NCBI RefSeq assembly: GCF_001955715.1
Contig: NZ_CP019239.1
Coordinates: 186,001 to 250,000 of the forward strand
Reading direction: 5' to 3'
From: Rhodoferax saidenbachensis
GTDB taxonomy: Bacteria; Pseudomonadota; Gammaproteobacteria; Burkholderiales; Burkholderiaceae_C
Length of the DNA: 64,000 nucleotides
Part shown: positions 17,612 to 57,589 of the stretch, piece after piece
Layout: every line of letters starts with the position of its first letter
Numbering within the stretch: position 1 is the first letter of the stretch
The notes under the pieces: model-generated
Told to the model about the DNA's origin: nothing
The model's input: the letters and a program-made list of their open reading frames with translations, nothing else
Database searches by the model: none
Translations under genes and position numbers: made by a program

Positions 17612-19513
17612 CTACTGCAGTGACACCACGCGCAACACCTCGTGCGCGTAGGCTTCCAGTTTCTTCGCCCCAATCCCGCTGATCCCCTGCAGGTCGTCCA
17701 GGGACTGCGGCGCCCGCTGGGCAATTGCGGCCAGCGTGGCGTCGTGAAAAATTACATAGGCAGGCAGGTTGTGCTCCTTCGCCACTTCGGCGCGCCAGGC
17801 TTTGAGCGCGGAGTAGCGCAGCAGGGCCTCGCTGTCCAGCGCGATCGGCGCCTTGACCACCGCACCCAGGCGTGCGCTGCGTTTGCTCTTGCGCTCCGCC
17901 GGGCCCGAGGCGGATTCGCGCAAGCCCACCTGCACTTCGCCTTTGAGCACGGCGCGTGAGCCTTCCGTCAACTCCAGCGTGTCGAAACTGTGGCCGTTGT
18001 CCATCGCCACCTTGTGCAGGCCCACGGCCCCGGTGGCGATCAGCTGGCGCAGCACGCCGCGCAATTGCGTCTCGCTGAACGAGGCGCCCAGGCCAAAGGT
18101 GCTCAAGGTGTCGTGGCCGAACTGTGCGACCTTGTCGGTTTTCTTGCCGCGCACGATGTCCATCAAATGCCCGGCACCAAAGCTGATGCCGCTCATCTGC
18201 TGGATGCGGTAAATCGTGGACAGCAGCTTGCGTGCTGCGTCGGTGCCATCCCAAATTTCGGGCGGGTTGATGCAGTTGTCACAGTTGCCGCAAGGCTGGC
18301 TTGGCTCGCCAAAGTAGCTGAGCAGGCGCACGCGGCGGCAGTCGGTGGCTTCGGCCAAGCCCAGCAGGGCGTCGAGCTTGCCGCGCATCACCTGTTTGAA
18401 TTCCTCGCCGGCCGGGCTCTCGTCGATCATGCGGCGCTGGTTCACCACGTCCTGCAGGCCATAGCCCATCCAGGCCTGGGCTGGCAGGCCGTCGCGCCCC
18501 GCGCGGCCGGTTTCCTGGTAGTAACCTTCGATGTTTTTGGGCATGTCCAGGTGGGCGACAAAACGCACATCGGGCTTGTCGATGCCCATGCCAAAAGCGA
18601 TGGTGGCCACCATGACGATGCCGTCTTCGCGTAGAAAGCGATCCTGGTTGGTCTGGCGTACCTTCTGGTCCAGGCCTGCGTGGTAGGGCAGGGCCTTGAT
18701 GCCGGCGTCCACCAGCGTTTGCGCCATGTCTTCCACCTTTTTGCGGCTCTGGCAGTAGACGATGCCGGCCTCGCCTTCGTGCTCGCGTTCGATAAAACGC
18801 AACAGTTGCAGCGTGGCGTCTTTCTTCTCGACGATGGTGTAACGGATGTTGGGGCGGTCAAAGCTGCTGACAAAGGCGCGTGCGTCTTCGAGCTGCAGGC
18901 GCTCCAGGATGTCGGCCCGGGTCAGGTCGTCGGCCGTGGCCGTGAGGGCGATGCGGGGAATGCCGGGGTAACGCTCGTGCAGCACCGTGAGGTTGCGGTA
19001 GTCGGGCCGGAAGTCGTGGCCCCACTGGCTGACGCAATGCGCTTCGTCAATGGCGAACAAGCCGAGCTTGCCGCGCTCAAACAGGGAATCCAGCAGCGCC
19101 AGAAAACGGGCATTGCTCACCCGCTCCGGTGCGGCGTAGAGCAGGGTGATCTCGCCGCGCAGCAATTGCTGTTCGATCTGGTAGGCCTCGTCGCCAGTGA
19201 GCGTGGAGTTCAGAAAGGCGGCGCTGACACCGGCCTCGTGCAGTGCGCCCACCTGGTCGTGCATCAGCGCAATCAGCGGCGAGATGACCAGGGTGATGCC
19301 GTGCCCGGCCTGCTGGCGCGCGATGGCGGGGATCTGGTAACAGAGCGATTTGCCGCCACCCGTGGGCATGAGCACCAGCGCATCGCCACCTTCGGCCACG
19401 TGTTCCACGATGGCCTGCTGCGGGCCGCGAAATGCGGGGTAGCCAAACACCGTGCGCAGAATGTCGTGGCAGGCGTCCAGCGTAGCGGTGGAAGAATCAG
19501 AATTTGCTATCAA
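17612..19513 (-). CDS. recQ: ATP-dependent DNA helicase RecQ
   Basis: A 3'-5' DNA helicase of 633 residues for recombination and fork repair. It carries Walker [18 protein letters not shown] box [19 protein letters not shown], motif [16 protein letters not shown], the RecQ-Ct zinc site [13 protein letters not shown]...CGNCDNC, and a C-terminal HRDC domain ending [11 protein letters not shown]. The only start that keeps the conserved N-terminus is a TTG at 19513. That codon lies inside copy 4 of dispersed repeat A and has no Shine-Dalgarno match, so the true start is uncertain; a GTG about 20 codons downstream would cut into the domain. Confidence 0.94.
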
Positions 19514-19560
19514 AACAGGAGCTGGTTGCGCAATATGGACGAGGGCTGGAGGCCTAAAAG
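19500..19560 (+). repeat. Dispersed repeat family A, copy 4
   Basis: AATTTGCTATCAAAACAGGA is followed by GCTGGTTGCGCAATATGGAC and GAGGGCTGGAGGCCT. It overlaps the first codons of recQ on the opposite strand and supplies its TTG start. Between it and the SAH riboswitch (19561-19701) I see only a promoter-like TAAAAT at 19687. Confidence 0.65.
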
Positions 19561-19701
19561 ACCATTAATTCGGGATGGTGGGCCGCTTGGCCCTGTTGTT
19601 CCACCGGGGTCTATTGTCGGGCATGGCCGCGTCCAGCCCTGCGGCCAGCGTGGTCAGGCGGGCCACTGCCAACGGCGGTTGTGAACTAAAATCGATGCTT
19701 A

Positions 19702-19788
19702 CCAAGGGGCGCTGCAGCTGGCGCCTGTCCAGACCCCGGTCCGGCAGGTTGTTCGGTCAGGCTTGGGGACTCCAACTGCGCTCACTTG
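19702..19788 (+). ncRNA. SAH riboswitch upstream of metH1
   Basis: The conserved SAH aptamer blocks are present in order: CCAAGGGGCGCTGCA (19702-19716), CAGGCTTGG (19758-19766) and GCGCTCACTTG (19778-19788). CCAAG pairs with CTTGG. GGGCGC pairs with GCGCTC through one G-U wobble, where the usual aptamer has GAGCG. A TAAAAT -10-like box stands 9 bases upstream, as in the metH2 copy. The aptamer senses S-adenosylhomocysteine and turns on SAM-cycle genes. Its anti-Shine-Dalgarno strand CTCACT (19781-19786) can pair with AGTGAG (20068-20073), but a 268-bp element now lies between them. Confidence 0.8.
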
Positions 19789-19798
19789 TTTAAAACCA

Positions 19799-20066
19799 AG
19801 AGCCTGTTCAAAGCCTTTATAGGGTCACGTTGGGGCGCAATCGGGATGCGTTGACTGCCAACATTTCGCCGTGTGGGCTCATGCCCACACAAGGAATTTG
19901 GTGGGCAAATCGCCCGATTTCGTCCCAACCCGAAGGGCAAGTGCCTTTTCGGGCGATCTGCGGCGTTGCAAAGCCTTGCCGGGCATCAGCCCGGCTGCGT
20001 TTTGCGCCTAGCAGCCCATCCCGAAAAGGTACTTGCGTGACCCTATAAAGGTTTTGAACAGGCTCT
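19799..20066. mobile_element. MITE-like palindromic element family B, copy 1
   Basis: A 268-bp element with 31-bp terminal inverted repeats (19799-19829 and 20036-20066, one mismatch), starting AGAGCCTGTTCAAA. Inside are a GTGTGGGC/GCCCACAC hairpin near 19870, a middle inverted pair (GCAAGTGCCTTTTCGGG against CCCGAAAAGGTACTTGC, 16 of 17) and a core hairpin at 19962-20008. The core is shared with the copy at 58493. It has no open frame and no clear target duplication. It sits between the SAH riboswitch and the metH1 ribosome-binding site. Confidence 0.85.
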
Positions 20067-20081
20067 CAGTGAGCCGCACCC

Positions 20082-21158
20082 ATGAAGCCCATCACCTACA
20101 CCCGCGCACAAGCCCTGCCAGGCATTCTGGAAAGCCGCATCGCCATCCTTGATGGCGCGATGGGCACCATGATCCAGCGCTTCAAGCTCGGTGAGGCGCA
20201 ATACCGCGGTGAAGGTTATACCGGCCCCGGCAGCCAGGGCGACCGCTTCAAAGATTTCCATAAGGACGTCAAAGGCAACAACGAGTTGCTGAGCCTGACG
20301 CGCCCCGACGTGATCAGCGACATCCATGAGCGCTACCTCGCCGCAGGCGCCGACCTGATCGAAACCAACACCTTTGGCGCCACCACTGTGGCCCAGGCCG
20401 ACTACGACATGGCCGAGCTGGCTATGGAGATGAATCGGGTGTCCGCCCAACTGGCGCGTGCCGCCTGCGACAAATACAGCACCCCCGACAGGCCGCGTTT
20501 TGTCTGCGGTGCCCTGGGCCCTACGCCCAAGACGGCCAGCATCAGCCCTGATGTGAACGACCCGGGCGCGCGCAATGTGACCTTTGAAGAACTGCGCGCC
20601 GCCTACTATGAACAGACCAAGGCGCTGGTCGAGGGCGGCAGCGATGTGATCCTGGTCGAAACCATTTTTGACACGCTGAACGCCAAGGCCGCGCTGTTTG
20701 CGGTGGATGAGTACTTTGAGGACAGCGGCCACCGCCTGCCCATCATCATCAGCGGCACGGTGACCGATGCGTCCGGCCGCATCCTGAGTGGCCAGACCGT
20801 CACCGCCTTCTGGCACAGCGTGCGCCACGCACAGCCGCTGGCCATCGGCCTGAACTGCGCGCTGGGTGCGGCGCTGATGCGCCCCTACATCCAGGAGCTC
20901 AACAAGGTGGCGCCTGACACCTTCATCAGCTGTTACCCCAACGCCGGTCTGCCCAACCCCATGAGCGACACCGGTTTTGACGAAACCCCGGACGTGACCG
21001 CACGCCTGGTGCGTGAGTTCGCGGCCGAGGGGCTGGTCAATATCGTGGGCGGCTGCTGCGGTACCACGCCCGACCACATTGGTGCGATCGGCGAGGCCGT
21101 GTCGCCGCTGGCGGCGCGTTCACGGCAGCGCAGTTTCTTCTACAAGGAAGCAGCCTAG
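20082..21158 (+). CDS. metH: Methionine synthase, homocysteine-binding module (split MetH, part 1)
   Basis: A 358-residue stand-alone homocysteine S-methyltransferase domain, equal to residues 1-353 of E. coli MetH. It begins with the family block [12 protein letters not shown] and contains [12 protein letters not shown]. The zinc ligands are seen as GLNCA and [11 protein letters not shown]. It cannot use methylcobalamin alone; the folate, B12 and reactivation domains are encoded separately at 32298-35057. The gene starts 16 bases after a MITE-like element, with AGTGAG as ribosome-binding site 8 bases before ATG. Expression is expected to be controlled by the SAH riboswitch at 19702. Cobalamin-dependent methionine formation is inferred from the two halves together. 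Confidence 0.93.
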
Positions 21159-21188
21159 GGCTGAAAGCTGCGTCGCGGCGCCTGGCCG

Positions 21189-22547
21189 TCAGTGCGCCAG
21201 CTTGAGCCCCAACACCTGTTGGGCCACGCAGCGCCCCTGCACCTTGCCGCTCTCGATCGCACTGCGGAAGTGGATGCCCGCGTACATGCGCGAGATCGCG
21301 GCCTCATCCGCCGCCGCGCGGAAGCTGGCGAAGGTGCGTGGGCCCCAACCGCGGTCGTTGTGGGTGTTGTCGGTGAAGGGCTTGTTGGCCCCGAACACCG
21401 CATCCAGCACATCTGCCGCCGCACCCGACTGCACCGAGTGCCCCGAGGGAAATTCAGGGAAGGCTGGCGTGTGCATCAGCGTGGGTACCCAGTTGCTGTC
21501 AATCACCAGTTGCACATAGGTCACCGGGCGGAGCAAATTCACGACGTACTTGGTTTTCCAGCCCGCAATGAAGGCGTCGCCCATGGCCATGTTCAGGCGC
21601 ACCAGGGTCTGGGCAGCCTGGGCCAGGTTGGCTTTTTGCTGCTTGAGCAGGTCGTTGGCGATGTAGAGCCAGTGGCCCGCGGGCGTGGGGGTCTTGAGGG
21701 GGTCATCCGCCCAGTACAAGGCTACCTGGCGCTGCTCCTGGGTCGCCTTGTTGCTCACCTGGTAGACCTCGTTGGCTTCCTTGTAGAAGGCGGAGCCTGG
21801 GCTCTCGGAGTAGGGCGGAGGCAGCGGTGCGGCGCAGGTTGTGCTGGCTTTCAGCACAAAGGGGCGCACATCGCCCCACCAGGGCAACAGCGCCGGCGCA
21901 AATGCCGGGGGCGTGGCGGACCACTGGCCCTCGCCACTCGGGGGCACATAGTTTTGCTGGTTGCGACGCAGCGGGCCCCAGGCCTCGTGGCCGCCATCGG
22001 TGCGGGCCCAGGTCATGATGGCCATGGCCATGAGCTTGCCAAAGGTTTCGGACCGGTTGGTGATCTCGGGCGTGACGGTGTTGGGGTCAAAGTCCTGGCT
22101 GTACTTGAGCGGCAGGCTGCGCTCCAGCAGGTCAATGCGGGCCTTGTTCTCGGCACTGGCCGTGGGAAACATCATGCGCGTCATGGTGGCCATGGAGGCA
22201 TTGGCCACGGTGGGCCAGTGCAGCACTTCATCGGGCTGGGCCCAAGGCAGCGACTGCAACTCGTTGAGCTGGCCGGCCAGGCTCTGGTTCTGCGGCATGC
22301 CGGGCACCACCGACTCGTACAGCGTGAGCCCCAGGTAAGCAAAGGCGCGCGACGCCACGGGCGGGCTGAAACCCGGCGTCTGCTGGGTCAGCAGCAGTGC
22401 CAGGCTGAACCACTCGGTGGCCACGCTGGCGCTGAAGGCGCTGGCTGGGGCCGCCACGGGCGGGGCCTGCTGAGCGTGCACCGGCAAGAAGGCGCTGGTC
22501 CAGGCGCAAGCCCATGCCAGACACAGAGAGAGCAATCGGTGTTTCAT
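21189..22547 (-). CDS. Exported vanadium-dependent haloperoxidase/PAP2-like protein
   Basis: A 452-residue protein with a signal peptide (MKHRLLSLCLAWACAWTSAF, cleavage near HAQQ). The C-terminal half has the vanadate/phosphate-binding motifs of the acid phosphatase-haloperoxidase superfamily: an N-terminal K-x6-RP-type element in KTKYVVNLLRPV, PSGHSVQSG, and SRMYAGIHFRSA. The protein is predicted to be periplasmic or secreted; oxidation of halide by peroxide, or phosphatase activity, would need testing. Its start overlaps the stop of the FG-GAP gene by 4 bases, so the pair is one operon transcribed away from the xylose genes. Confidence 0.85.
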   Translation of the reverse strand: MKHRLLSLCLAWACAWTSAFLPVHAQQAPPVAAPASAFSASVATEWFSLALLLTQQTPGFSPPVASRAFAYLGLTLYESVVPGMPQNQSLAGQLNELQSLPWAQPDEVLHWPTVANASMATMTRMMFPTASAENKARIDLLERSLPLKYSQDFDPNTVTPEITNRSETFGKLMAMAIMTWARTDGGHEAWGPLRRNQQNYVPPSGEGQWSATPPAFAPALLPWWGDVRPFVLKASTTCAAPLPPPYSESPGSAFYKEANEVYQVSNKATQEQRQVALYWADDPLKTPTPAGHWLYIANDLLKQQKANLAQAAQTLVRLNMAMGDAFIAGWKTKYVVNLLRPVTYVQLVIDSNWVPTLMHTPAFPEFPSGHSVQSGAAADVLDAVFGANKPFTDNTHNDRGWGPRTFASFRAAADEAAISRMYAGIHFRSAIESGKVQGRCVAQQVLGLKLAH

Positions 22548-24172
22548 GGGGCTTTCCAGTTCACAAGGCCTTGGGGGCTGAGGGTGTAGAAGGCGTCGGC
22601 CTTGGCGGGCATCCAGTCGCTCCAGCCGCCATGGGGCCACTGCACGCGCAACTGGGCTGTGGCAGCGGTACCCAGGCCAAAGTGCATCCAGCCCAGGTGG
22701 CCGCTGGCGTGGCCACCACCCACCGTGAGTTCCTGGCGGATGACGGGGGCAGCATCACCCTCGCCGAGCTTCACTTCCACCCACGCGCCCACCGCGTCAC
22801 GGTTGCCGGCAGGCTGCTGCAGGCGCAGCTGCAACCAGTGGCCCGCACCCGCCGTCGCACCGCTGCTGGTCTGGCGCCAGAGCTGGGCCTTGTCCCAGCG
22901 GTTCACCACCAGCACGTCCAGCAGGCCATCGCCATTCAGGTCCACCACCATGCCACCGCGCCCGCGCTTGAAGCTGGCCAAGCCGGCCTGGCTGCCCACT
23001 TCCACAAAATGGCCATCGGCCTTTTGCAGCAGCAGGTTGTTGGGGTCCAGCGTCGCAAAGTCGGGCATGGTGGAGACATTGCCCTTGACCACAAACAGGT
23101 CCGTCAAGCCGTCGTTGTTCATGTCGGCAAACTGCGCGTGCCAGGCGGTGCTGGGGTGCACATCGCCGCCCACATAGGGCCGGTGCGCGGTGACGCCGCG
23201 TTTGAACGCCATATCGGTGAAGCGCGGCTGACCAGCACCCGCCTCCAGCGTCTGCAGCTTGTTGTCCGACATGCTGGTCAAAAATACATCGGGGTAACCG
23301 TCGCCATTGAGGTCGTGGCTGGCAATGCCCATGCCCCAGATCTGCAGCGGCTTCCAGCCCTGGGCCGCGGTGTAGAGCGTGGGCGTAGCACCTGCGGGCA
23401 CTTGCCAGAGTTGCTCTTCACCGCCCTTGTAGTACTCGCGGTCATTGCTTACGCGCAGCGCGGCCGTGCCCGAGCGGTTCCAGTCGGAGAACAGCATGGA
23501 CAGCGCACAGTGGCCGGGCACCAAAGGCGTGGCCGGCTGGTAGCCGCCCCCCTCTTTGGGGCGCAGCAGCAGGCCGGGCGTGCAACTGCCCCAGGGGAAC
23601 TCGGGCTTGCTGCGGTCGGTATAAGTGCCGATGGCCAGTGTGGGCCAGCTTTGGCCCTGCTCCCAGGTGGCAGATAACGCGGTGTGCCAGCCGTTGCCGG
23701 TGTGAATGTTCCAGGCATCGTTGGCGCGCTCGAACTTGCACTGGCCCAGGCCTTTGAAGACCTGCACCTCGCCCACGCGCAGCACCGCCAGGTCGGTCTG
23801 GCCATCGCCGTCGATGTCCAGCGGGTAGGCACCAATGGCGTTGGTCAGCTCCAGGCCCGAGCGCTCTTCCTGTAGTTTGAGCGCACCGCCGCGGGTACTG
23901 CGATTGCGGTAGAACTTGGCCTTGTTGACGCCGGCGGTGGCATAGACCTCGGGCAGGCCGTCACCGTCGCAATCGAAGGTGGCCACACCGCCGCCCACCA
24001 TGTATTCGCCCTCACCTTCAAAGCGGCTTTGCAGGCCGGCGGTGTCGGTCTCTTCGGCAAAACGGGGGACGGCCGGCGGTGGTACATCGGCCGCCAGCGC
24101 CATCTGGGTCAGGAACAGACCCGCCACAGCGGCGCGCACGGCGGACCGCGAAATCCAATCCAGAGGGGCCAC
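22544..24172 (-). CDS. Exported FG-GAP/VCBS repeat protein with ASPIC/UnbV domain (CRTAC1-like)
   Basis: A 542-residue protein with a signal peptide ending near ALAAD. Five or more calcium-binding FG-GAP repeats are visible: FDCDGDGLPEV, LDIDGDGQTDL, HDLNGDGYPDV, ADMNNDGLTDL and VDLNGDGLLDV. They form a beta-propeller, followed by an ASPIC/UnbV C-terminal domain (AVGAWVEVKLGEGD, GGGHASGHLGWMHFGLG). The start is GTG at 24172 with AAAGGA 7 bases upstream; no ATG fits. It is coupled to the haloperoxidase-like gene. A role in binding or presenting the partner outside the cell is inferred. Confidence 0.85.
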   Translation of the reverse strand: MAPLDWISRSAVRAAVAGLFLTQMALAADVPPPAVPRFAEETDTAGLQSRFEGEGEYMVGGGVATFDCDGDGLPEVYATAGVNKAKFYRNRSTRGGALKLQEERSGLELTNAIGAYPLDIDGDGQTDLAVLRVGEVQVFKGLGQCKFERANDAWNIHTGNGWHTALSATWEQGQSWPTLAIGTYTDRSKPEFPWGSCTPGLLLRPKEGGGYQPATPLVPGHCALSMLFSDWNRSGTAALRVSNDREYYKGGEEQLWQVPAGATPTLYTAAQGWKPLQIWGMGIASHDLNGDGYPDVFLTSMSDNKLQTLEAGAGQPRFTDMAFKRGVTAHRPYVGGDVHPSTAWHAQFADMNNDGLTDLFVVKGNVSTMPDFATLDPNNLLLQKADGHFVEVGSQAGLASFKRGRGGMVVDLNGDGLLDVLVVNRWDKAQLWRQTSSGATAGAGHWLQLRLQQPAGNRDAVGAWVEVKLGEGDAAPVIRQELTVGGGHASGHLGWMHFGLGTAATAQLRVQWPHGGWSDWMPAKADAFYTLSPQGLVNWKAP

Positions 24173-24273
24173 GCTGGAATCCTTTGTGAAAAATGAAAGA
24201 ACTTTCCAATCTTATTAAGTTCGATCAATAAACTATGTCGGGTTTATCCCTATACGCTTCCATTTCAAGTCTC

Positions 24274-24301
24274 TTGATAATTAGTTTGTCGTTCTTACTA
24301 A
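24274..24301 (+). promoter_or_regulatory. xylF promoter with overlapping XylR operator-like site
   Basis: A -35-like TTGATA (24274-24279) and -10-like TACTAA (24296-24301) are spaced by 16 bases. Over them lies TTAGTTTG...ACTAA, an inverted repeat at 24281-24301 whose left half equals the half-site of Firmicute XylR operators (TTAGTTTGTTT). Since this cluster encodes a ROK-type XylR, the site is a good candidate for repression relieved by xylose. The rest of 24173-24392 serves both divergent operons. Confidence 0.6.
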
Positions 24302-24392
24302 ATGCACCGTGTTGCATTTACGGCAGCACGATGACTCAGAAGAGTCCGTCCAAAACCATAGGCCTCTCACAGGCCAATTACCGGAGACAACG

Positions 24393-25412
24393 ATGAAACT
24401 GAAGACAACATTGACCGCCTTTGCCCTGAGCATGGCTGCGGCTGGCGCATTTGCCCAAGTGGTGGGCGTGAGCTGGTCCAACTTCCAGGAAGAGCGCTGG
24501 AAGACCGACGAAGCCGCCATCAAGGCCCAGTTGACCAAAGACGGCGCCACCTACATCAGCGCAGACGCAGGCGGTTCTCCCGAGAAGCAGTTGGCCGACA
24601 TCGACAGCCTGATCTCCAAAGGCGCCAAAGCCCTGATCATTCTGGCCATGGACAAGGACGCGATCCTGCCCGCCGTGAACAAGGCCAATCAGCAAAAAAT
24701 CCCCGTGGTCGCCTATGACCGTTTGATCGAAGCGCCCGGCGTGTTCTACATCACCTTTGACAACGTGGAAGTGGGCCGCATGCAGGCACGCGCCATTTTT
24801 GCCGCCAAGCCCAAGGGCAACTACGTGATGATCAAGGGCTCGCCGACCGATCCCAACGCCAATTTCCTGCGCGGTGGCCAACAAGAAATCATTGACGCTG
24901 CTGTGAAAAAGGGCGACATCAAGATCGTCGGCGAGGAATACACCGACGGCTGGAAGCCCGAAGTGGCCCAGAAGAACATGGAACAAATCATCACCAAGAC
25001 CGGCGGCAAGATTGACGCCGTGGTCGCGTCCAACGACGGCACTGCCGGCGGTGTGGTGGCAGCCTTGACTGCCAAGGGCATCAAGGGCATTCCCGTGTCG
25101 GGCCAGGATGGTGACCACGCTGCGCTGAACCGCGTGGCGCTGGGCAGCCAGACTGTGTCGGTATGGAAAGACGCACGCGACCTGGGCCGCGACGCTGCGG
25201 CTGCTGCCGTGGTACTGGCCAAGGGCCAGAAGGTTGCCGGAGCCCAGACCTGGAGCGGTGGCGAGAAAAAGGTGCCGTTGCAGGCCCAGTTCCTCAAACC
25301 CATTCCTGTAACCGCTGCCAACCTGGACCTGGTGGTCAAGGCCGGCTGGATCAAGAAGGATGAGTTGTGCAAGGGTGTGGACGCTGCCAAGGGGCCTGCT
25401 GCTTGCAAATAA
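24393..25412 (+). CDS. xylF: D-xylose ABC transporter, periplasmic binding protein
   Basis: A 339-residue xylose-binding protein with signal peptide [20 protein letters not shown] cleaved near AFAQ. It matches E. coli XylF in [41 protein letters not shown] and [11 protein letters not shown]. The start at 24393 has CGGAG 8 bases upstream; earlier frame is not protein-like. A strong terminator-like hairpin after it suggests that XylF is made in excess over the membrane components. Confidence 0.94.
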
Positions 25413-25442
25413 TGTGCGTGTCTCTCTGAGTTAGCCACCTCC

Positions 25443-25475
25443 AACCGCGGGCTGGGGTCAGCCCGCGGTTTTTTT
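25443..25475 (+). terminator. Terminator/attenuator between xylF and xylH
   Basis: An 11-bp stem AACCGCGGGCT/AGCCCGCGGTT with a GGGGTC loop is followed by seven T residues. It is a fully formed intrinsic terminator inside the operon, so downstream xyl genes depend on readthrough. No second promoter is evident in the 20 bases before xylH. Confidence 0.88.
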
Positions 25476-25495
25476 ATGTCCTGCGGAGAACGCAT

Positions 25496-26686
25496 GTGAA
25501 TCCCGTTTTGAATTCGCTCAAGCACGCGGCCATCGATTGGCGCCTGGTGATGATGGGTACGGTGCTGGCAGCCATTGCCATCGTCTTCAACATCCTGTCT
25601 GGCGGACTGTTTTTGTCCCCCGAGAATTTGTACAACATCGCCCAGCAGACGGCGGTGGTGGGTGTGGTCGCTACCGTGGTGGTGCTGATCATCGTGGCCC
25701 GCCACATCGACCTGTCGGTGGGCTCGGTCATGGGCTTTGTTGGCGTGCTGATTGCCACGCTGATGTACACCGCCAACTGGCACTGGGTGCCGGCCTCGTT
25801 GGCCGGGCTGGCCGTGGCGATTGTCGTATCCGTGTACCAGGGCGCACTGACGGCCAAACTGGGCGTGCCTTCGTTTGTCGTCACGTTGGGCGGCCTGATG
25901 TCGTTTCGTGGCGCCGCCTTTTTGGTGGCTGACGGCAAGACCCAGCCAGTCAATGACCAGTTTTTCCAGCGTCTGGGAGGTGGCTTTGACGGCGCCATTG
26001 GCGTGGGCCCGAGCTGGGTACTGGCCGCCGTGATTGTGCTGGCCCTGGTGGTCCAAATGTGGGCCAAGCGCCGTGCCAAAGCCTCGTATGGCGTGCCCAA
26101 CAACCCGCTGTGGCTGGACGCCGCCATTGTGTTGGTGCCCGTGGCCATCGTGCTGGCGTTTGTGGCCTCCATGAACAGCTACCAGATCATGAACAAGGAC
26201 GCCCCCCAGGGCATCCCGATTCCGGTGCTGATCTGGGCCGCCGTGGCCCTGGTGTTGTCCTTTATCGTGCACCGCACCCGTTTTGGCCGTTATGTGTTTG
26301 CCATGGGAGGCAACCCCGAAGCGGCCGCGCTGGTGGGCATTCCCGTGCGCAAGGTCACTCTGATGTTATTCGCGCTGATGGGTGTGCTCATCACCATCGC
26401 CGCCATGGTGTCGATTGCGCGCCTGAACGCGGGTACCAATTCGCTGGGCACCAGCATGGAGTTGTATGTGATTGCCGCAGCCGTGATCGGCGGCACTGCG
26501 CTGGCCGGGGGCAGCGGCTCCATCCTCGGTTCGGTACTGGGTGCCCTCATCATGCAAAGCATAGACAGCGGCATGTTGCTGCTGGACGTATCCATTGGCG
26601 TGCGCTACGTGATCATCGGCCAGGTGCTGATTGCTGCGGTGGTGTTTGACGTGATTTACCGCCGGCTGACAGGAGATACGGTATGA
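25496..26686 (+). CDS. xylH: D-xylose ABC transporter permease
   Basis: Membrane permease of 396 residues, close in length to E. coli XylH (393). It has CUT2 motifs [15 protein letters not shown] and [21 protein letters not shown]. Between the halves is the extended loop with two additional helices typical of XylH (about residues 150-235). GTG at 25496 is the start, with GGAG 8 bases before it; the ATG two bases upstream is followed directly by a stop. It overlaps xylG by ATGA. Confidence 0.93.
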
Positions 26687-27471
26687 GCAGCATCGAACAA
26701 CAGGCGTCGCAAGAGGTGCTGGTGGAGATGCGCCATGCTGGCAAGTCCTTTGGCGGCGTGCATGCGGTGGACGACGTGAGCATCAAACTCTACCCCGGCG
26801 AAGTGGTGGCCCTGCTGGGGCACAACGGCGCGGGCAAGTCCACACTGATGAAAATGCTGGCCGGTGCCTACCCGATCGACAGCGGCGACGTCTTCATCAG
26901 CGGCGAGAAGGCCAACATCCGCACCCCTGTGGATGCGCAGCGCTGCGGCATCGAATCCATTTACCAGACCCTGGCGCTGGCCGACAACCTCGACGCTGTG
27001 GCCAATCTGTTCCTGGGCCGCGAACTGTTGACGCGCTGGAACACGCTGGACGACCACCGCATGGATGCCGAGGCACGCAAGGTGTTCCACCGCCTGAACA
27101 AGAACTTCAAGAACGTGCGCACGCCGGTGCGCCGTCTCTCGGGCGGGCAACGCCAGGTGGTGGCCATTTCGCGTGCGATTTACTTCAACGCCAAGATACT
27201 GATCATGGACGAGCCCACGGCCGCGCTGGGCCCCGAGGAAACCGCGATGGTGGGCAATCTGGTGCGCCAGCTCAAGGCCGAAGGCGTGGGCATTTTTCTC
27301 ATCACCCACGACATGCCCGATGTGTTTGGCCTGAGCGACCGTCTGGCCGTGATGAAAAACGGCAAGTTGGTAGGCACCTACCGCACTGGCGATGTGACCG
27401 AGGACGAAGTTCTTGGCATGATCATCGCAGGCAAACAACCCGAGGGCAAAGCGCAAACCCACAGCCTGTGA
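26683..27471 (+). CDS. xylG: Sugar ABC transporter ATP-binding protein, single-NBD XylG
   Basis: A 262-residue ATPase with one complete ABC cassette: Walker [10 protein letters not shown] (about residues 46-54), Q-loop YQTLAL, signature RLSGGQRQ, Walker [13 protein letters not shown] and switch H in LITHDMPD. E. coli XylG is about 513 residues with two cassettes; here only one is present, so a homodimer must drive transport. It resembles the FrcA/short CUT2 ATPases. Coupled to xylH and followed after 24 bases by xylR. Confidence 0.9.
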
Positions 27472-27495
27472 GGCTGCGCGACTTCCCGCACCACC

Positions 27496-28671
27496 ATGAA
27501 AACCATTGGCGACCAACAACTTGTCAAACGCATCAACCGCAGCGTGTTGCTGCGGCTGCTGCGCAACCAGAGTGGCCTGTCGCGCGCCCAACTCGCGCAG
27601 GAAAGTGGGTTGACCAAATCTACCGTCAGCCTGCTGGTGCGCGAACTGATCGACGAAGGCTGGCTCAGCGAAACCGATGTGCCCGCAGCCCAGGGGCTGG
27701 GGCGCCCCTCCACCCCCCTGCAGATTGACAGCCGCAGCCGCGGCATGATCGGTGTGGAAGTGGCCGTCGAGGCCCTGCGTGTGGTGGGCGTGTCGCTCAC
27801 TGGCCAGGTGTTGTGCGCACTGGAAGAGGCGCTGGGTGGCACCAAACCCGAAGACGTCTGCAAACAAGCCGCCCGTCTGGTGGCCCGCACCCATGCCCAG
27901 CTCACGCAGCGCGGCGTGCAGCTTGCCGGTGTGGGCGTAGGCTTGCCCGGCGCGTTTGACGAGGCCACCGGCATGTTGCGCTTTGCCCCCAACCTGGGCT
28001 GGCGCAATGTGGACTTTGTGCCGCTGATCACCCAGGCGCTGGCCCAGGCCGGCTTACCCCCGGTGGCCGTGCATGTGCAAAACGAAGCCGATACGGCCGC
28101 TCTCAGCGAATACGAATTCTCCGAGGGTGATGCCAAGGACTCGCTGATTTTTGTGACCTGCGGCGCCGGTGTGGGCGCGGGCATTGTGCTCAACGACCGC
28201 CTGTTTACCGGCATGCAAGGCATGGCTGGCGAAATTGGCCACAGCATTTTGCAGATCGACGGGCCCTTGTGTTCGTGCGGACGCAAGGGCTGTGCAGAAA
28301 CCTTTTTTGGTGCCCGCACCCTGGCCAAGCTGCCCGAACCGGCCCAGGGCGGCCACTACCTGGGCGTGGTATTGCAAAACCTGTGGACCACCTTCAACCC
28401 CAGCATGCTGGTGGTGGGCGGCCCCTCGTGCGACACCTACCCCGGCATTGTCCAGGTCGCCCAAGACACCTTGCAAGCGTACGCGACCAGCGCTGGCATG
28501 ACTGCCCCTACTGTGCGCGCTGCGCGTTATGGCTTGCTGGCTTCTGCCGTAGGTGCTGCCGCGCTGGTACTGCACCACGACCTGCGTCCTATGCATGCCC
28601 GCATGTCTGCGTTGGCGGCACGCCCGGCAGACGCAATAGAGATTTCTTCCACATCCACCATCGCGGCATAA
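27496..28671 (+). CDS. xylR: ROK-family transcriptional repressor XylR
   Basis: A 391-residue regulator with an N-terminal winged helix (about residues 10-70: LVKRINRSVLLRLLRNQSGL, LAQESGLTKSTVS) and a ROK sugar-kinase-like domain. The ROK zinc site is present as GEIGH and CSCGRKGCAE. E. coli XylR is an AraC-type activator, so this is the Firmicute-style arrangement. It probably binds the site at 24281-24301 and releases it with xylose. It lies inside the operon between transporter and catabolic genes, which gives autoregulation. Confidence 0.87.
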   Translation: MKTIGDQQLVKRINRSVLLRLLRNQSGLSRAQLAQESGLTKSTVSLLVRELIDEGWLSETDVPAAQGLGRPSTPLQIDSRSRGMIGVEVAVEALRVVGVSLTGQVLCALEEALGGTKPEDVCKQAARLVARTHAQLTQRGVQLAGVGVGLPGAFDEATGMLRFAPNLGWRNVDFVPLITQALAQAGLPPVAVHVQNEADTAALSEYEFSEGDAKDSLIFVTCGAGVGAGIVLNDRLFTGMQGMAGEIGHSILQIDGPLCSCGRKGCAETFFGARTLAKLPEPAQGGHYLGVVLQNLWTTFNPSMLVVGGPSCDTYPGIVQVAQDTLQAYATSAGMTAPTVRAARYGLLASAVGAAALVLHHDLRPMHARMSALAARPADAIEISSTSTIAA

Positions 28672-28689
28672 ATCGCCGCACACGTACGC

Positions 28690-30138
28690 ATGTTTATTGG
28701 CATTGACATTGGCACCTCCGAAGTAAAGGTGCTGCTTTTGACCTCCGACCACACCGTGCTCGGCTCGGCGGGCACCGCACTCACCGTGCAGCGCCCGCAC
28801 CCTGGTCATAGCGAACAGAATCCGCACGACTGGTGGGCCGCCACGCAGTCTGCACTGGCACAGCTGCGTGCTGCCCACCCGCAAGAATTTGCCGCGGTGC
28901 AAGCCATTGGCCTGTCGGGCCAGATGCATGGTGCTGTGCTGCTGGACGCGCAAGACCAGGTGTTGCGCCCCGCCATTTTGTGGAACGACACACGCTGCGC
29001 GGCTGAATGCGCAGAGATGATGGCCGAACTGCCCACGCTCACTGATCTGGCCGGCACGCTGGCCATGCCAGGCTTCACCGCGCCCAAGCTGCGCTGGGTG
29101 GCCAAGCATGAGCCCGCCGTCTTCCAACAAGTTGCCAAGGTGCTGCTGCCCAAAGACTATGTGCGCCTGAAGCTCACCGGCGAGTACGTGAGCGACATGT
29201 CCGACGCCAGCGGCACGCTGTGGCTGGACGTACAACAGCGTACCTGGTCAGACGCCCTGCTGGCGTTGACCGGCCTGACGCAGGCCCACATGCCGCGCCT
29301 GGTGGAGGGCAGCGCGCCCGGCGGCTACCTGAAGGCCGATGTGGCCCAGGCCCTGGGCCTGAATGCAGGCATCGTGGTGGCCGGTGGCGCTGGCGACAAC
29401 GCAGCCAGTGCCGTGGGCATGGGTGCGGTGGACGCGGGCCAGGGCTTTTTGTCGCTGGGCACCAGCGGCGTGCTGTTCGTCGTCACCCCCAGCTACCAGC
29501 CCAATGCGGCCAGCGCCACGCATGCGTTTTGCCACGCCGTGCCCGGCCGCTGGCACCAGATGAGCGTGATGCTGTCTGCCGCCAGCAGCCTTCAGTGGGT
29601 CACCGACCTTCTGGGCGCACCGAACGCCGGTGTGGTGGCAAGCAAGGCCGCCGAGCTGTCGCTGGCGGACCGCGCAGCGTCACCCTTGTTTTTGCCCTAT
29701 CTCGGTGGTGAGCGCACGCCGCACAACGATGCGAATGTGCGCGGCAGCTTTCACCAACTGAGCTTTGACACCGACGCGGCTCGCCTGGGCTACGCGGTGA
29801 TCGAAGGCGTGACCTTTGGCCTCAAAGACGGCCTGGCCGCGCTGAATGCCGCAGGCAGCAGCGTGAGCCGCCTGTCTCTGGTAGGTGGCGGCGCGCGCAG
29901 TGCCTTTTGGGCGCAACAGTTGGCCTCCGCCCTAAATGCCGAAGTGGTCACCCATGGAAGCTCCGCTGTCGGTGGTGCCCTGGGTGCCGCCCGCCTGGGC
30001 TGGCTGGCCACCGGCGCTACCCAAAGCGCCGTGTGCTTGAGCCCCGAGGTAGAAGCCAGCTACCACCCCAACCCCGCCGAACAAGACCTGCTGGCTGTGC
30101 GCTACGCGCAGTTCCGCAGCCTGTACCGCCCAGCCTAA
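28690..30138 (+). CDS. xylB: Xylulokinase
   Basis: A 482-residue FGGY-family kinase that phosphorylates D-xylulose to xylulose 5-phosphate for the pentose phosphate pathway. The N-terminal [11 protein letters not shown] phosphate loop, [20 protein letters not shown] and the catalytic region [14 protein letters not shown] are all visible; E. coli XylB has 484 residues. It begins 18 bases after xylR and is followed 43 bases later by xylA. The order xylB before xylA is reversed compared with E. coli. Confidence 0.95.
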
Positions 30139-30181
30139 TCCGACCCCACCCCTCAACACTTTTTTTTATTCCGAGAACACC

Positions 30182-31495
30182 ATGAGTACCTACTTCTCCA
30201 ACGTCTCCCCCATTGCCTATGAAGGCCCCACCTCCAGCAACCCGCTGTCGTTCAAGTGGTACGACAAAGACCGCATCGTGCTGGGCAAGCGTATGGAAGA
30301 GCAGCTGCGCTTCGCCGTCTGCTACTGGCACAGCTTCTGCTGGAATGGCCTGGACCCGTTTGGTGGCGACACCTTCCAGCGCCCTTGGCAACACATGGCC
30401 GACCCCATGACCGCGGCCAAGGCCAAGGCGGATGTGGCGTTTGAGTTCTTCAGCAAGCTGGGCGCGCCCTACTACTGCTTCCACGACCGCGACGTGGCCC
30501 CCGAAGGCGCCACTCCGCGTGACAGCGTGAATAACCTGCGCGAGATGGTGGACGTGCTGGGCGCCAAGCAGGCCGAGACCGGCATGAAGCTGCTGTGGGG
30601 CACGGCAAACTTGTTCAGCCACCGCCGCTTCATGTCGGGTGCGGCCACCAACCCCAACCCCGAAATCTTTGCCCTGGGCGCGCTGCAGGTGAAAGAAGCC
30701 ATGGATGCCACGCTGAAACTTGGCGGCGCCAACTACGTGCTGTGGGGCGGCCGCGAAGGCTATGAGACCCTGCTGAACACGCGCATAGGCCATGAACTGG
30801 ACCAGATGGGCCGTTTCCTCAACATGGTGGTGGAGTACAAGCACAAGATCGGCTTCAAGGGCACCATCCTGCTCGAACCCAAGCCGCGCGAACCGTCCAA
30901 GCACCAGTACGACTTTGACAGTGCCACGGTGTACGGCTTCCTGTGCCGGTACGGTTTGGAGAAGGAAATCAAGGTCAACATCGAAGCCAACCACGCCACG
31001 CTGGCTGGCCACAGCTTCGAGCACGAAATCGCCACCGCAGTCGACCTGGGCATCTTCGGTTCCATCGACATGAACCGCGGTGACATGCAGTGCGCATGGG
31101 ACACCGATCAGTTCCCCAACAGCATTCCCGAAACCGCGCTGGCCATGTACACCATCCTGCAAGGCGGCGGTTTCGTCAACGGCGGAGTGAATTTTGACGC
31201 CAAGGTGCGCCGCCAGTCCATCGACCCCGAAGACATGTTCCACGGTCACATTGGCGGCATGGATGTGACCGCGCGCGCGCTGCTGATTGCGGAAAAAATG
31301 ATCAACGACGGCAAGCTGGCCAAGCTGGTGGAAGACCGTTATGCGGGCTGGAAAGCCCCGTTCGGCCAAAACGTACTGGACGGCAAGATGACCCTGGAGG
31401 CAGTCGCCGCCCATGTGGTGGATCGCAATACCGACACCCAGCCCGTGTCCGGCCGCCAAGAGTTGCTGGAGAACCTGCTGAATACCTACATTTGA
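30182..31495 (+). CDS. xylA: Xylose isomerase, class II
   Basis: A 437-residue cytoplasmic enzyme that converts D-xylose to D-xylulose with two divalent metals. Length matches the long class II enzymes. Active-site segments include [12 protein letters not shown] (catalytic His), [31 protein letters not shown] and [10 protein letters not shown]. With XylFHG and XylB it completes the isomerase route; no xylose dehydrogenase (oxidative route) gene is seen here. It converges with the cyclic-nucleotide-binding gene; a CCCCGC/GCGGGG hairpin (31508-31528) lies between the stops. Confidence 0.96.
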
Positions 31496-31514
31496 GGGGG
31501 TGGAAGTCCCCGCT

Positions 31515-32099
31515 CTAGTGGGCGGGGCCTATGGCCGAAGGGTGGGTGATGTGGGCCAGCTCTTCGCGCATGGTGGTGGCCAGACGGGCATAGAGCTTGA
31601 GCTGGCGGTTGGTGTCGCGCAGGCGTTCGGCGATATGGGCTGAAACGCCCAGCAGCAGCCGGGCTGCCACGGCCGGGTCTTTGACAATCATGGCGTCCAC
31701 GGCCTCCCGTGTCAGGATGGCACACCACACATCGGTGCTGGCGGTGCACGAGGCGGAGCGCGGTTCGTTGTCGATCAGCGCCATCTCGCCGACCAGACTG
31801 CCCGGGCCCAGCACCCGCACGGTGACGGGTTCGGTGCGGCTCACGGTAATGCGCTCAATCACCACCTCGCCTTCGACCAGCAAGGCCATGAAACGGTTGT
31901 CGCCAACGTCCCCCTCGCGGATGAAGGTGGTGTTGGCGGGGAAAAACCGGGGCGTCATGTAGGCCACAACCGCGCGGGCCTCTTCGAGAGACAGGTGGGT
32001 CAGGGCGTCCGGGGCGGCCAGGAGCTCTGCCGCACGTTCTGCCCCCGGTGAGGGATTGCTCACGGGTTCCTGCGTGGCCGGGGACGCGTTTTCGGTCAT
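31515..32099 (-). CDS. Cyclic nucleotide-binding domain protein without DNA-binding domain
   Basis: A 194-residue protein with one cNMP-binding fold: FIREGDVGDNRFMALLVEGEV, VRVLGPGSLVGEMALIDNEPRSAS and ARLLLGVSAHIAERLRDTNR. The phosphate-binding cassette is GEMALIDNEPRSA, where Arg-Ser is the canonical cAMP contact. No helix-turn-helix follows, unlike Crp/Fnr; the C-terminus is a short helix. It could be a cAMP sensor or regulatory subunit of an unknown partner. The start has AGGAG 7 bases upstream. It is divergent from metH2. Confidence 0.82.
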   Translation of the reverse strand: MTENASPATQEPVSNPSPGAERAAELLAAPDALTHLSLEEARAVVAYMTPRFFPANTTFIREGDVGDNRFMALLVEGEVVIERITVSRTEPVTVRVLGPGSLVGEMALIDNEPRSASCTASTDVWCAILTREAVDAMIVKDPAVAARLLLGVSAHIAERLRDTNRQLKLYARLATTMREELAHITHPSAIGPAH

Positions 32100-32194
32100 G
32101 GTCCGCTCCTGCAGGAGCCCTCCTGTTGTGGTTTTGCGCCATCCTAGCCCAGACGGTCGCCCCGTGCACGCGGTTCGCCGTTAAAATGACAGCT

Positions 32195-32293
32195 TCCAAG
32201 GAGCGTTGCAGCGGGCCACACAGTGTCCGTCAGGCTTGGATGGCGTTTAACCGACCGCAACGACGCTCACCTGAATGCTGTTTTACAGGTGAG
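32195..32293 (+). ncRNA. SAH riboswitch upstream of metH2
   Basis: The aptamer has TCCAAGGAGCGTTGCA (32195-32210), CAGGCTTGGA (32231-32240) and ACGCTCACC (32263-32271), matching the SAH riboswitch consensus GAGGAGCGCUGCA / CAGGCUCG / GCGCUCA. TCCAAG pairs with CTTGGA and GAGCGT with ACGCTC. The expression platform is explicit: CTCACCTG (32266-32273) can instead pair with CAGGTGAG (32286-32293), which is the ribosome-binding site. Ligand binding locks CTC into the aptamer and frees the site, so this is an ON switch. TAAAAT 8 bases upstream is the likely -10 box. Confidence 0.9.
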
Positions 32294-32297
32294 ATGC

Positions 32298-35057
32298 ATG
32301 CCCTCCAATTCCCCTAGCCCTGCGGCTGTCGCTTCCGTTGCCCCCATGATGCTGTCCGGCCTGGAGCCGGTCACGCTTGATTCTTCGTCGCTGTTTGTCA
32401 ACATCGGTGAACGCACCAATGTCACGGGCTCCAAGGCCTTTGCCCGCATGATTCTCAACGGCGAGTTTGAGCAGGCCCTGGCTGTGGCGCGCCAGCAGGT
32501 GGAAAACGGCGCCCAGATCATCGATATCAACATGGATGAGGCCATGCTGGACAGCCAAGCCGCCATGGTGCGCTTCCTGAACCTGATTGCCAGCGAACCC
32601 GATATTTCCCGCGTGCCCATCATGATCGACAGCTCCAAATGGAGCGTCATCGAAGCCGGCCTGCGCTGCGTGCAGGGCAAAGGCATCGTCAACTCCATCA
32701 GCATGAAGGAAGGCGTGGAGCAGTTCAAGCAACAGGCCAAGCTGCTGCGCCGTTATGGTGCCGCCGCCGTGGTGATGGCGTTTGACGAGCTGGGCCAGGC
32801 AGATACCTACCAGCGCAAGATTGAAATCTGCGAGCGGGCCTACCGCATCCTGGTGGACGAGATCGGTTTTCCAGCAGAAGACATCATCTTCGACCCCAAC
32901 ATCTTCGCCATTGCCACCGGCATTGAAGAACACAACAACTACGCGGTGGACTTCATTGAAGCCACGCGCTGGATCAAACAAAACCTGCCGGGCGCCAAGG
33001 TGTCGGGTGGTGTGAGCAACGTGTCCTTTTCGTTCCGTGGCAATGACCCGGTGCGCGAAGCCATCCACACCGTGTTCCTGTACCACGCGATCCAGGCTGG
33101 CATGGACATGGGCATCGTCAACGCCGGCATGGTCGGCGTGTACGACGACCTGGAGCCCGAGCTGCGCACCCGCGTGGAAGACGTGGTGCTCAACCGCCGC
33201 CCCGACGCGGGTGAACGTCTGGTGGAGATCGCCGAAACCGCGAAAAGTGGCGCCAAGGACGATAGCAAACGGCTGGAGTGGCGTGGGACCGCCGAAGCGC
33301 CAGCGTCGGTTGGCCAGCGCCTGAGCCACGCGCTGGTGCATGGCATCACTGACTTCATCACCGAAGACACCGAAGAGGCTTACCGTGGCATTCTTGCCAA
33401 GGGCGGCCGCCCGTTGCACGTCATTGAAGGCCCTTTGATGGACGGCATGAACATCGTCGGCGACCTGTTTGGCCAGGGCAAGATGTTTTTGCCCCAGGTG
33501 GTGAAAAGTGCCCGGGTCATGAAGTCCGCGGTAGCGCATTTGATTCCCTACATCGAAGAAGAAAAGCGCCAGGACGAAGCCGCCGGGCGCGATGTGCGTA
33601 CCAAGGGCAAGATCGTGATTGCCACCGTCAAGGGCGATGTGCACGATATCGGCAAGAACATTGTCACCGTGGTCTTGCAGTGCAATAACTTCGACGTGGT
33701 CAACATGGGTGTGATGGTGCCCTGCCACGAAATTCTGGCCCGTGCCAAGCTCGAAGGCGCCGACATCGTGGGCCTCTCGGGCCTGATCACGCCGAGTCTG
33801 GAAGAGATGCAGTACGTGGCCGGTGAGATGCAGAAGGACGATTACTTCCGCATCAAGAAAATTCCGCTGCTGATCGGTGGCGCGACCACCAGCCGCGTGC
33901 ACACGGCGGTGAAGATTTCGCCCCATTACGAAGGCCCTGTGGTGTATGTGCCCGACGCCTCCCGCAGTGTCAGCGTGGCGCAAAGCCTGCTCTCGGACCA
34001 GGCGGCCAAATACGTGGACGAGCTGAATGCCGACTACGACAAGGTCCGCCACCAGCACGCGAATAAGAAGCAGACGCCGATGTGGTCGCTGGACAAGGCA
34101 CGCGCGAATAAGACACCGGTGGACTGGAGCCACTACCAGCCGACACGTCCCAAATTCATTGGCCGCCGTGTTTTCAAGAACTTTGACCTGGGCGAGCTGG
34201 CCAAGTACATCGACTGGGGCCCGTTCTTCCAGACCTGGGACCTGGCCGGCCCGTTCCCCGCCATCCTGAAAGACGAAATCGTCGGCACTGAGGCTGTGCG
34301 TGTGTACGCCGACGGCCAGCGCATGCTCAAGCGCCTGATCGAAGGCCGCTGGCTTACAGCCAACGCCGTGGTCGCGCTGTACCCGGCCAACACGGTGAAC
34401 GACGATGACATCGCGTTCTACACCGACGAGAGCCGCACGGACGTCGCCATGACCTGGTACGGCCTGCGTCAGCAGACCGAAAAGCAGGTGATTGACGGCG
34501 TGATGCGCCCCAGCCGCTGCCTGGCTGACTTTGTTGCGCCCAAGGGTGTGGCCAACGACTACGCGGGCCTGTTTGCGGTGACCGCAGGCATTGGTGTAGA
34601 CAAGAAGGAAAAGTATTTCCTGGACGACCTGGACGACTATTCCGCCATCATGCTCAAGGCGATCGCCGACCGCCTGGCCGAGGCCTTTGCCGAAGCCCTG
34701 CACCACCGCGTGCGCACTGACCTGTGGGGTTATGCCAGCAACGAGGCGTTGAGCAATGAAGACATGATTGCCGAGAAATACAAGGGGATTCGCCCCGCGC
34801 CCGGTTACCCGGCTTGCCCGGACCATAGCGTCAAGAAGGACATGTTCGACCTGCTGCAATGCGAAGAAATTGGCATGGCGGTGACCGAAAGCCTGGCCAT
34901 GACGCCCGCCGCCAGCGTGAGCGGCTTCTACATCGGCCATCCCGATGCCACCTACTTCAACGTGGGCAAGATTGGCGATGACCAGGTGCAAGACCTGGCG
35001 CGCCGGCGCGGCTTGCAGGCTGCAGCACTGCAGCGCCTGCTGGCGCCCAACCTCTAG
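32298..35057 (+). CDS. metH: Methionine synthase, folate/cobalamin/AdoMet modules (split MetH, part 2)
   Basis: A 919-residue protein equal to E. coli MetH from residue 354 on. The pterin-binding domain starts with [18 protein letters not shown]. The B12 domain has DVHDIGKN (Asp-x-His-x-x-Gly) supplying the lower-axial histidine. The C-terminal AdoMet-dependent reactivation domain includes [12 protein letters not shown]. It transfers methyl from 5-methyl-THF to cobalamin; the homocysteine domain is the separate gene at 20082. The ATG at 32298 follows AGGTGAG by 4 bases, and that site is sequestered by the SAH riboswitch. The intact MetH would be about 1280 residues. Confidence 0.95.
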
Positions 35058-56722: not shown

Positions 56723-57589
56723 ATGCAAAACGATCTGACCCTGCGCTCCAATGAACTGTGGTGCGAAATCAAACCTGAACTTGGCGGCTGCATAGCCGGC
56801 CTGTGGCTGGGCGATGTGCCGGTGCTGCGCTCCACCCGCGCACAAGACCTGCACTCGGTGCGCCAGTCGGGCAGCTACCCGCTGGTGCCGTTCTCCAACC
56901 GCATTGGCCACGGCCAGCTGCAATGGGCTGGCACCAGCCATCCGCTGGTAAAAAATTTTGAGCCCGAGGCCCATGCCATCCATGGCATCGGCTGGGAGCG
57001 GCCCTGGGAGGTGCTGGAGTCCAGCGCCCAGTTCGCCATGCTCTCGTTTGAACACAAGGCCGACACGGCTTGGCCGTTTGACTTCGACAGCTCCCAGGTC
57101 TTCAAGATCAGCGACAACGCGCTGGAGATGACTCTCAGCATCACCAACCAGTCCCAGGTCTCCGCGCCCGTGGGGTTGGGGTGGCACCCGTACTTTGCCA
57201 AGCACCCGGGCAGCCGCGTCGCGTTCGCCGCCACCGGCCGCTGGGAGATGGGTACCGACAAGCTGCCCACCCACCACGCCGCCCACACCGGGCTGGACAA
57301 CGACTGCGCTACGCTGACGGTGGACCACTGTTTTGACGGCTGGAACGGCACGCTTCGGCTGGAAGACTCCGTGCTGCGCACGGAGGTCACATCAGCCCTG
57401 AGCCGTATCGTGGTGTTCACCACGCCCGAGCGCGACAACATCGCCATCGAACCGGTCAGCCACATCAACAACGCGCTGAACCTGATGGCCCAGACCAGCG
57501 CCTCTGCCGAGTCCCTGGGTGTGGTCATCCTGCAGCCCGGTGACACCTATTCCTGCGCCATGCGCATCCAGGTGGAGCGCGCGGTATGA
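56723..57589 (+). CDS. Aldose 1-epimerase family protein
   Basis: A 288-residue mutarotase-like protein of the galactose mutarotase fold. Conserved features include PLVPFSNRIGHGQ, HAIHGIGWERPW (catalytic-type histidine), GLGWHPYF and a C-terminal glutamate region TPERDNIAIEPVSHINNALN. It interconverts anomers of an aldose or modified sugar; the substrate is not deducible. ATG 56723 is the first plausible start; no Shine-Dalgarno match is seen. It is coupled by ATGA to the lactonase gene, suggesting the pair works on a free sugar and its lactone. Confidence 0.88.
   Translation: MQNDLTLRSNELWCEIKPELGGCIAGLWLGDVPVLRSTRAQDLHSVRQSGSYPLVPFSNRIGHGQLQWAGTSHPLVKNFEPEAHAIHGIGWERPWEVLESSAQFAMLSFEHKADTAWPFDFDSSQVFKISDNALEMTLSITNQSQVSAPVGLGWHPYFAKHPGSRVAFAATGRWEMGTDKLPTHHAAHTGLDNDCATLTVDHCFDGWNGTLRLEDSVLRTEVTSALSRIVVFTTPERDNIAIEPVSHINNALNLMAQTSASAESLGVVILQPGDTYSCAMRIQVERAV

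Follow-up and report, generated by a model that had tools for sequence, protein, structure and literature searches.

The stretch of DNA analysed here (the window) comprises 64,000 nt of the Rhodoferax saidenbachensis contig NZ_CP019239.1, from position 186,001 to 250,000, and harbors both halves of a split methionine synthase. The first gene, metH1, scores below the whole-protein cut-off of TIGR02082, only the homocysteine S-methyltransferase part being present; the remainder of MetH is encoded by metH2 (about 32298-35057). The two halves are located about 11 kb apart (20082-35057), and the open reading frames between them include, as judged by eye, genes for a sugar (xylose-type) ABC transporter, a kinase and an isomerase. 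In two other genomes (G210 and G192), two SAH riboswitch matches lie only about 2 kb apart, as if the metH halves adjoin there. In Comamonadaceae, the SAH riboswitch regulon is reported to include MetH as a taxon-specific member (PMC4239095). The features of the metH1 leader and those used for comparison are listed in Table 1.

Table 1. Features of the metH1 leader and comparison features (window positions)
Feature	Position	Strand	Basis
Probable metH1 -10 box (TAAAAT), directly 5' of the aptamer	19687-19692	+	Sequence; kept in relatives
SAH riboswitch aptamer	19698-19790	+	RF01057, 43.3 bits, cut-off 37; 55 of 56 conserved columns kept
Anti-Shine-Dalgarno strand CTCACT	19781-19786	+	Sequence; mean pairing probability 0.944 with 20068-20073, ligand-free model
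Palindromic MITE-like element, subfamily A, between the switch strands	19799-20066	+	268 bp; 31-nt inverted ends; repeated in the genome
Left arm of the element	19799-19829	+	Inverted ends; compensatory changes with the right arm
Inner hairpin core, element positions 162-214	19960-20012	+	Also inside other repeats of this and other genomes
Right arm of the element, holding TATAAA (20044-20049) without a good -35	20036-20066	+	Inverted ends; sequence
AGTGAG, ribosome-binding strand sequestered by the anti-Shine-Dalgarno strand	20068-20073	+	Sequence; unpaired 0.009 in the ligand-free and 0.318 in the bound model
metH1, homocysteine S-methyltransferase part of split methionine synthase	20082-21158	+	TIGR02082 (metH) positions 2-322, E 5.2e-137
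Second SAH aptamer, upstream of metH2, without insertion (comparison)	32192-32275	+	RF01057, 54.7 bits

A scan of the whole window with cmscan and Rfam release 15 revealed two above-cut-off matches, both to RF01057, and one of them is placed before metH1, a gene of the SAM cycle. A preceding sequence-only reading had proposed an aptamer at 19702-19788, and the covariance model recovers it at nearly the same borders. The two complementary strands that this reading had assigned to the switch are also found at their places, and the same design recurs in the metH2 leader (CTCACCTG/CAGGTGAG). CTCACT presumably overlaps with the 3' strand of aptamer helix P4. In all 32 element-free leaders examined, a TAAAAT hexamer precedes the aptamer core by at most 30 nt, and since it is kept here as well, the natural transcript should start at the aptamer and traverse the element.

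The palindromic element of 268 bp with 31-bp inverted ends described in the sequence-only reading was confirmed. Its arms are 97% complementary, the single departure being a G.T that still pairs in RNA, and its ends read AGAGCCTGTT. In size and structure it agrees with miniature inverted-repeat transposable elements (MITEs), as it is shorter than 500 bp, carries terminal inverted repeats and is non-coding; a protein-coding role was considered and rejected, because the frame found open in some copies meets an early stop codon here (by eye) and lengths change elsewhere. Folded alone, the element reaches -176 kcal/mol (z = -16.6; a stability reached by none of 200 shuffles), the predicted structure being closed at its base by an uninterrupted run of 30 pairs, and the leader from 19695 to 20100 has a z of -11.7, with none of 100 shuffles equally stable.

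metH1 leaders of relatives without the element

The genus set comprised 103 genomes including this one, of which 99 have an SAH riboswitch match and 48 a metH1 match at E <= 1e-80. Leaders were fetched for 46 of the 47 other metH1 genes, leaving out G209, where the match begins at a contig end. The aptamer is present in 33 of these 46 leaders, namely 32 with the core motif and one (L184) which is cut by a contig end and shows the 3' part of the aptamer and the platform only. None of the 46 leaders, including the 33 of SAH type, carries the element. The closest SAH-type leaders (L176 and L177, from G163 and G158) read CTCACTTGTTTAAAACCACACAGTGAG, and the insertion site in the window reads CTCACTTGTTTAAAACCA, followed by the element and CAGTGAG, which is 2 nt shorter. 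This comparison places the element in the loop of the sequestering hairpin, as had been claimed from the sequence of the window, and the hairpin is uninterrupted around the insertion point in the relatives. The platforms vary: a pattern search identified CTCACTT combined with AGTGAG or AGGTGAG in 26 of the 32 complete SAH-type leaders. One relative with element copies elsewhere in its genome (G167) has a different platform in its metH1 leader (L206).

In a wider set of 80 named metH1 loci, the element was found upstream of metH1 in none; the aptamer motif occurs in three, and a -10-like hexamer lies within 40 nt of the match start in 73. In many Comamonadaceae lacking the riboswitch, TTTCTACAAT is often located only about 6-15 nt before the metH1 start codon, as in leaderless mRNA, and metH1 thus seems to exist in a riboswitch form and a leaderless form.

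At the 56 aptamer columns that are conserved in at least 90% of the 32 genus leaders, most of these leaders show no departure at all, and the metH1 aptamer of the window differs at one, the outermost P1 base (C to A). Its score of 43.3 bits is lower than in the closest SAH-type relatives (52.8 in G163 and 51 in G158). Both the lower score and the broken outer P1 pair would suit a decaying switch, in which the element attenuates transcription or folding, metH1 is expressed at a lower and unregulated level, and it is enough for the cell to regulate its other SAH-responsive genes. Within the element, a terminator-like hairpin (19978-19995) could contribute to such attenuation, although the two sites of this kind in the region are at chance level (0.9 expected from shuffles, sd 1.0). 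What makes such decay very unlikely in our view is that the aptamer core is otherwise intact, that the metH1 protein shares 94% identity with its closest relatives, and that a search for two protein families revealed no substitute. metH1 is the sole PF02574 match in the genome, and the MetE N-terminal domain PF08267 gave no match in this genome in a search that was positive in 10 of 14 control genomes. With a single match to the one family and none to the other, metH1 presumably must be expressed, and the insertion probably cannot have silenced it without cost unless methionine is supplied. The fourfold degenerate sites of metH1 differ by 0.35-0.44 from those of six genus relatives.

A dispersed family of palindromes and the evolution of its arms

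Dispersed copies and empty sites, both characteristic of MITEs, were found: BLAST detected nine full-length places in this genome, the metH1-leader copy included, with 81-100% identity, and all 33 other SAH-type leaders lack the element. One of the nine places aligned over element positions 24-245 only, and its full length was evident on inspection. Shorter relatives of the family are also present in the genome, for example with 207 bp. The end motif AGRGCCTGTTCA occurs 38 times (reversed control: 0) and also marks a second subfamily, which includes another 268-bp palindrome in the window (58496-58763) with the ends TAGGGCCTG...CAGGCCCTA and TA on both sides, as well as palindromes of 41 bp. 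The 268-bp copy of this sister subfamily begins at the end of an open reading frame (57586-58497) and precedes another (58841-60064). The 41-bp palindromes consist of little more than two adjoining element ends (genome G000, the one analysed here, at 1293847-1293887, 1623411-1623451 and 4011580-4011620; loci L239, L230 and L236) and look like minimal or collapsed copies. At a further locus of the same genome (L242, 1811801-1812746), two family elements of 207 and 268 bp lie about 0.5 kb apart in opposite orientation.

Among 14 loci with a lone end motif, four (L230, L235, L236 and L238) turned out to be elements whose partner end is imperfect. An autonomous insertion sequence with the same ends, which would read GAGCCTGTT, was not found in this genome in an inspection that covered the open reading frames of three of the remaining loci, where no transposase was recognised by eye, and stretches of five loci. 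Outside this genome, part of the element is matched in 61 of 150 genomes of a spread sample of the family, many of them by the inner core only. Within the genus, four of the 103 genomes match it, this one included, and among the other three a near full-length match exists only in G167. One genome of 2.5 Mb (G065) gave 253 candidates at first look, compared with 44 in the genome analysed here, and a large expansion of the element is possible there.

Identical 3-bp flanks were observed in seven of 24 copies, and all of them are of the type TNA (TTA four times, TGA, TAA and TCA); shuffling gave a mean of 2.9, with 16 of 2000 shuffles reaching seven. Such targets would presumably fit IS5-type transposition. 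An intact target-site duplication was rejected for the metH1-leader copy, which is flanked by CAA and TCA at a site that is 2 nt shorter than in the nearest element-free leader. Compared with eight other copies, the window copy shows no private changes in its inner 206 nt. This suggests a young insertion in the metH1 leader, although changes shared with near copies could also explain it, and the copy may be so young that conservation of the aptamer is not necessarily due to selection after the insertion. The absence of a matching target duplication argues somewhat against a very recent event.

For the analysis of the fold, 20 copies were aligned (alignment A1), comprising the nine BLAST-chosen copies of this genome and 11 from other genomes. 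The outside copies were kept after finding anchors and outward pairing, which might bias the selection; of 43 outside loci tried, 17 had no anchors, four more were dropped (L010, L017, L247 and L270) and three with long inserts were omitted (L266, L269 and L271). In the outer stem of 30 pairs, 97.3% of the cells are paired, and 100 cells show double changes, compared with 27.6 +/- 4.6 in shuffles. The corresponding values for the whole fold are 97.0% and 181, against 45.9 +/- 6.2. Slid controls lower the pairing of the outer stem to 25-46%. The nine copies of this genome alone lead to the same result, with 97.4% of the outer stem paired and 32 double-change cells against 9.8. The weakest measure is the number of further pair types, which was reached by 16 of 500 shuffles for A1 and by 74 of 500 for the nine copies.

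In the inner hairpins 90 G.T cells stand against 13 A.C cells, and in the outer stem 14 against 12; moreover, the plus strand folds more stably in 18 of the 20 copies. These numbers are no more than suggestive of strand-specific selection on the fold at the RNA level, since a structure taken from the plus strand of one copy favours G.T and the copies are related.

Among the parts measured, conservation is lowest in the middle of the arms, with a mean pairwise identity of 0.64 compared with 0.91 in the interior (nine copies of this genome). If the changes were slow and compensatory, the paired arms ought to be better conserved than the rest, and concerted rewriting is therefore the bolder reading. 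The family might then represent a self-insulating RNA cassette whose arms stay complementary while their sequence is rewritten, with one arm serving as template for the other (by hairpin copying in the course of movement or repair) instead of mutations accumulating slowly in pairs. Copies would arrive self-closing and could land in regulatory RNAs, in this case in the loop of a riboswitch expression platform, without breaking them. We offer this as a tentative idea.

The hypervariable part of the right arm also contains the TATAAA on which a new promoter for metH1 could be based. Transcription would then start near 20055, and the transcript would lack the aptamer and be constitutive. TATAAA is absent at this place from the other copies compared, some of which have TATAGA, and Correia elements are reported to create promoters at their ends (PMC2649163). 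The hexamer at a spacing of 17 nt is CCGAAA, however, which by eye is a poor -35, and the native TAAAAT is kept. A consensus scan of 19500-20200 found no promoter (0.1 expected), but this negative weighs little, because the same scan missed the probable native TAAAAT promoter. The sequence-only reading had named a new promoter from the element as its alternative, and this is opposed only weakly by the scan; taking all points together, we consider it unlikely.

The filled switch and the control of metH1

The segment 19698-20130 was folded under ligand-free and ligand-bound constraints, the latter holding P1 and keeping the P4 strands single, in a model without pseudoknot, co-transcriptional folding, ribosomes or nucleases. 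In the filled leader, the mean probability of pairing between the two switch strands is 0.944 in the free and 0.002 in the bound model, with the values for the unpaired ribosome-binding strand given in Table 1. Joining the flanks without the element results in 0.941 and 0.064, with 0.003 and 0.246 unpaired. Nine relatives chosen from the 32 cover 0.94-0.99 free and 0.004-0.084 bound, and their ribosome-binding strand is unpaired at 0.003-0.014 and 0.15-0.39. In the bound model, the site in the window is therefore still mostly paired, as in these relatives. The start codon opens no further upon binding in the filled leader (0.651 to 0.625) and hardly with joined flanks (0.651 to 0.666); it opens in the bound model in eight of the nine relatives.

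The helix between the two strands contributes a predicted stabilisation of 7.75 kcal/mol in the filled leader, compared with 10.80 kcal/mol when the flanks are joined and 8.37 +/- 1.84 kcal/mol (3.95-11.53) in 26 element-free relatives. According to the model, the element costs the helix about 3 kcal/mol relative to the joined flanks, yet the filled switch stays within the range of the relatives. When the insert was replaced by 60 dinucleotide-shuffled versions, the pairing dropped to a mean of 0.438 (median 0.332) and was below 0.5 in 33 of them. Tolerance is not unique to this element, since 27 of the 60 shuffles keep a pairing of at least 0.5 and 11 of at least 0.94. With the eight other natural copies or the reversed element as insert, the pairing is 0.944-0.949. 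In the model, it is self-closure rather than the exact sequence that leaves the switch standing.

SAH riboswitches are ON switches that act upon binding of their ligand. The modelling favours structural tolerance of the insertion, and our main reading is that a translational, SAH-activated metH1 riboswitch took a mobile palindrome into the loop of its platform hairpin and still works, to which we assign a probability of about one in two. The palindrome would have entered the loop of the expression-platform hairpin CTCACT...AGTGAG and, once transcribed, would fold on itself into a closed arm, so that the switch strands remain close. Their effective separator would be an internal loop of 12 + 1 nt, replacing a hairpin loop of 15 nt. 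In the ligand-free RNA the ribosome site would be hidden by the anti-Shine-Dalgarno strand, and binding of SAH would draw CGCTC into the aptamer and free the site. The single transcript from the TAAAAT promoter, the ON polarity and the working regulation in the cell are what we infer for this leader. The interpretation put forward in the sequence-only reading is partly supported, namely in its anatomy and in the structural tolerance seen in the modelled pairing, and a working switch is a prediction of the model.

The strongest and most serious rival is cleavage by RNase III, for which the 30 continuous pairs at the base of the fold are a likely substrate. Cutting of the element stem in the nascent mRNA would part the aptamer and the anti-Shine-Dalgarno strand from metH1, which would then be translated, free of SAH control, from a processed mRNA whose ribosome site is accessible. 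Its seriousness stems from a similarly placed Correia element of N. meningitidis, located between mtrCDE and its native promoter, which is reported to be present in the mRNA, to be cut by RNase III and to remove the genes from their regulators (PMC2649163). RNAs of neisserial MITEs have also been proposed as RNase III substrates, and ERIC insertions are described as altering mRNA stability (PMC2229807). A cut high in the stem, on the other hand, would leave paired bases that could hold the pieces together temporarily. We regard a loss of control through cleavage as a possibility to be reckoned with, albeit not the expected outcome.

The filled switch shares with the SAH riboswitches (RF01057) before metH of Comamonadaceae an above-cut-off aptamer upstream of a methionine-synthase gene, and differs from the 33 other SAH-type metH1 leaders in the 268-bp mobile element between the anti-Shine-Dalgarno and Shine-Dalgarno strands. 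The element resembles the Correia elements (CREE/NEMIS) of Neisseria, short palindromes between promoter and gene which occur in mRNA and can alter control; by description, the latter reach only about 157 bp and have promoter and IHF features, whereas the element here has 268 bp and branched hairpins (PMC2649163). ERIC/IRU and other bacterial MITEs are likewise described as palindromic and mostly intergenic, with 5' and 3' ends forming a stem (PMC2229807; PMC10969869), and differ, again by description, in size, in the terminal motif and in the identical 3-bp TNA flanks of some copies. The BRE repeat of Bordetella and Comamonadaceae including Rhodoferax and Polaromonas has roughly 90 bp, with partial copies of 40-60 bp (PMC3110155). 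Its described size and host range resemble those of the inner core of the element (162-214), which is found across the family, and BRE may be this core, likened here by description only; the account of BRE in that source does not present it as a 268-bp palindrome (PMC3110155).

Both MetH as part of the SAH regulon in Comamonadaceae (PMC4239095) and palindromic mobile repeats in bacterial leaders are already published, and MITEs have been suggested as possible formers of riboswitches (PMC10969869). In the open-licence literature, judged from titles and the beginnings of abstracts, we found no report of a mobile element in the expression platform or leader of a riboswitch. The metH1 leader offers a natural experiment on the stretching of an expression platform, with 268 nt added to a loop of 15 nt at a predicted cost within the spread of element-free relatives. 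The rewritten and nevertheless complementary arms pose a separate question on the evolution of palindromes. If the switch fails, the locus would be a clear case of a MITE freeing a seemingly substitute-less gene from metabolite control. If it works, regulatory RNAs can carry self-folding mobile elements as neutral passengers, and searches that demand a short distance between aptamer and gene would miss such switches.
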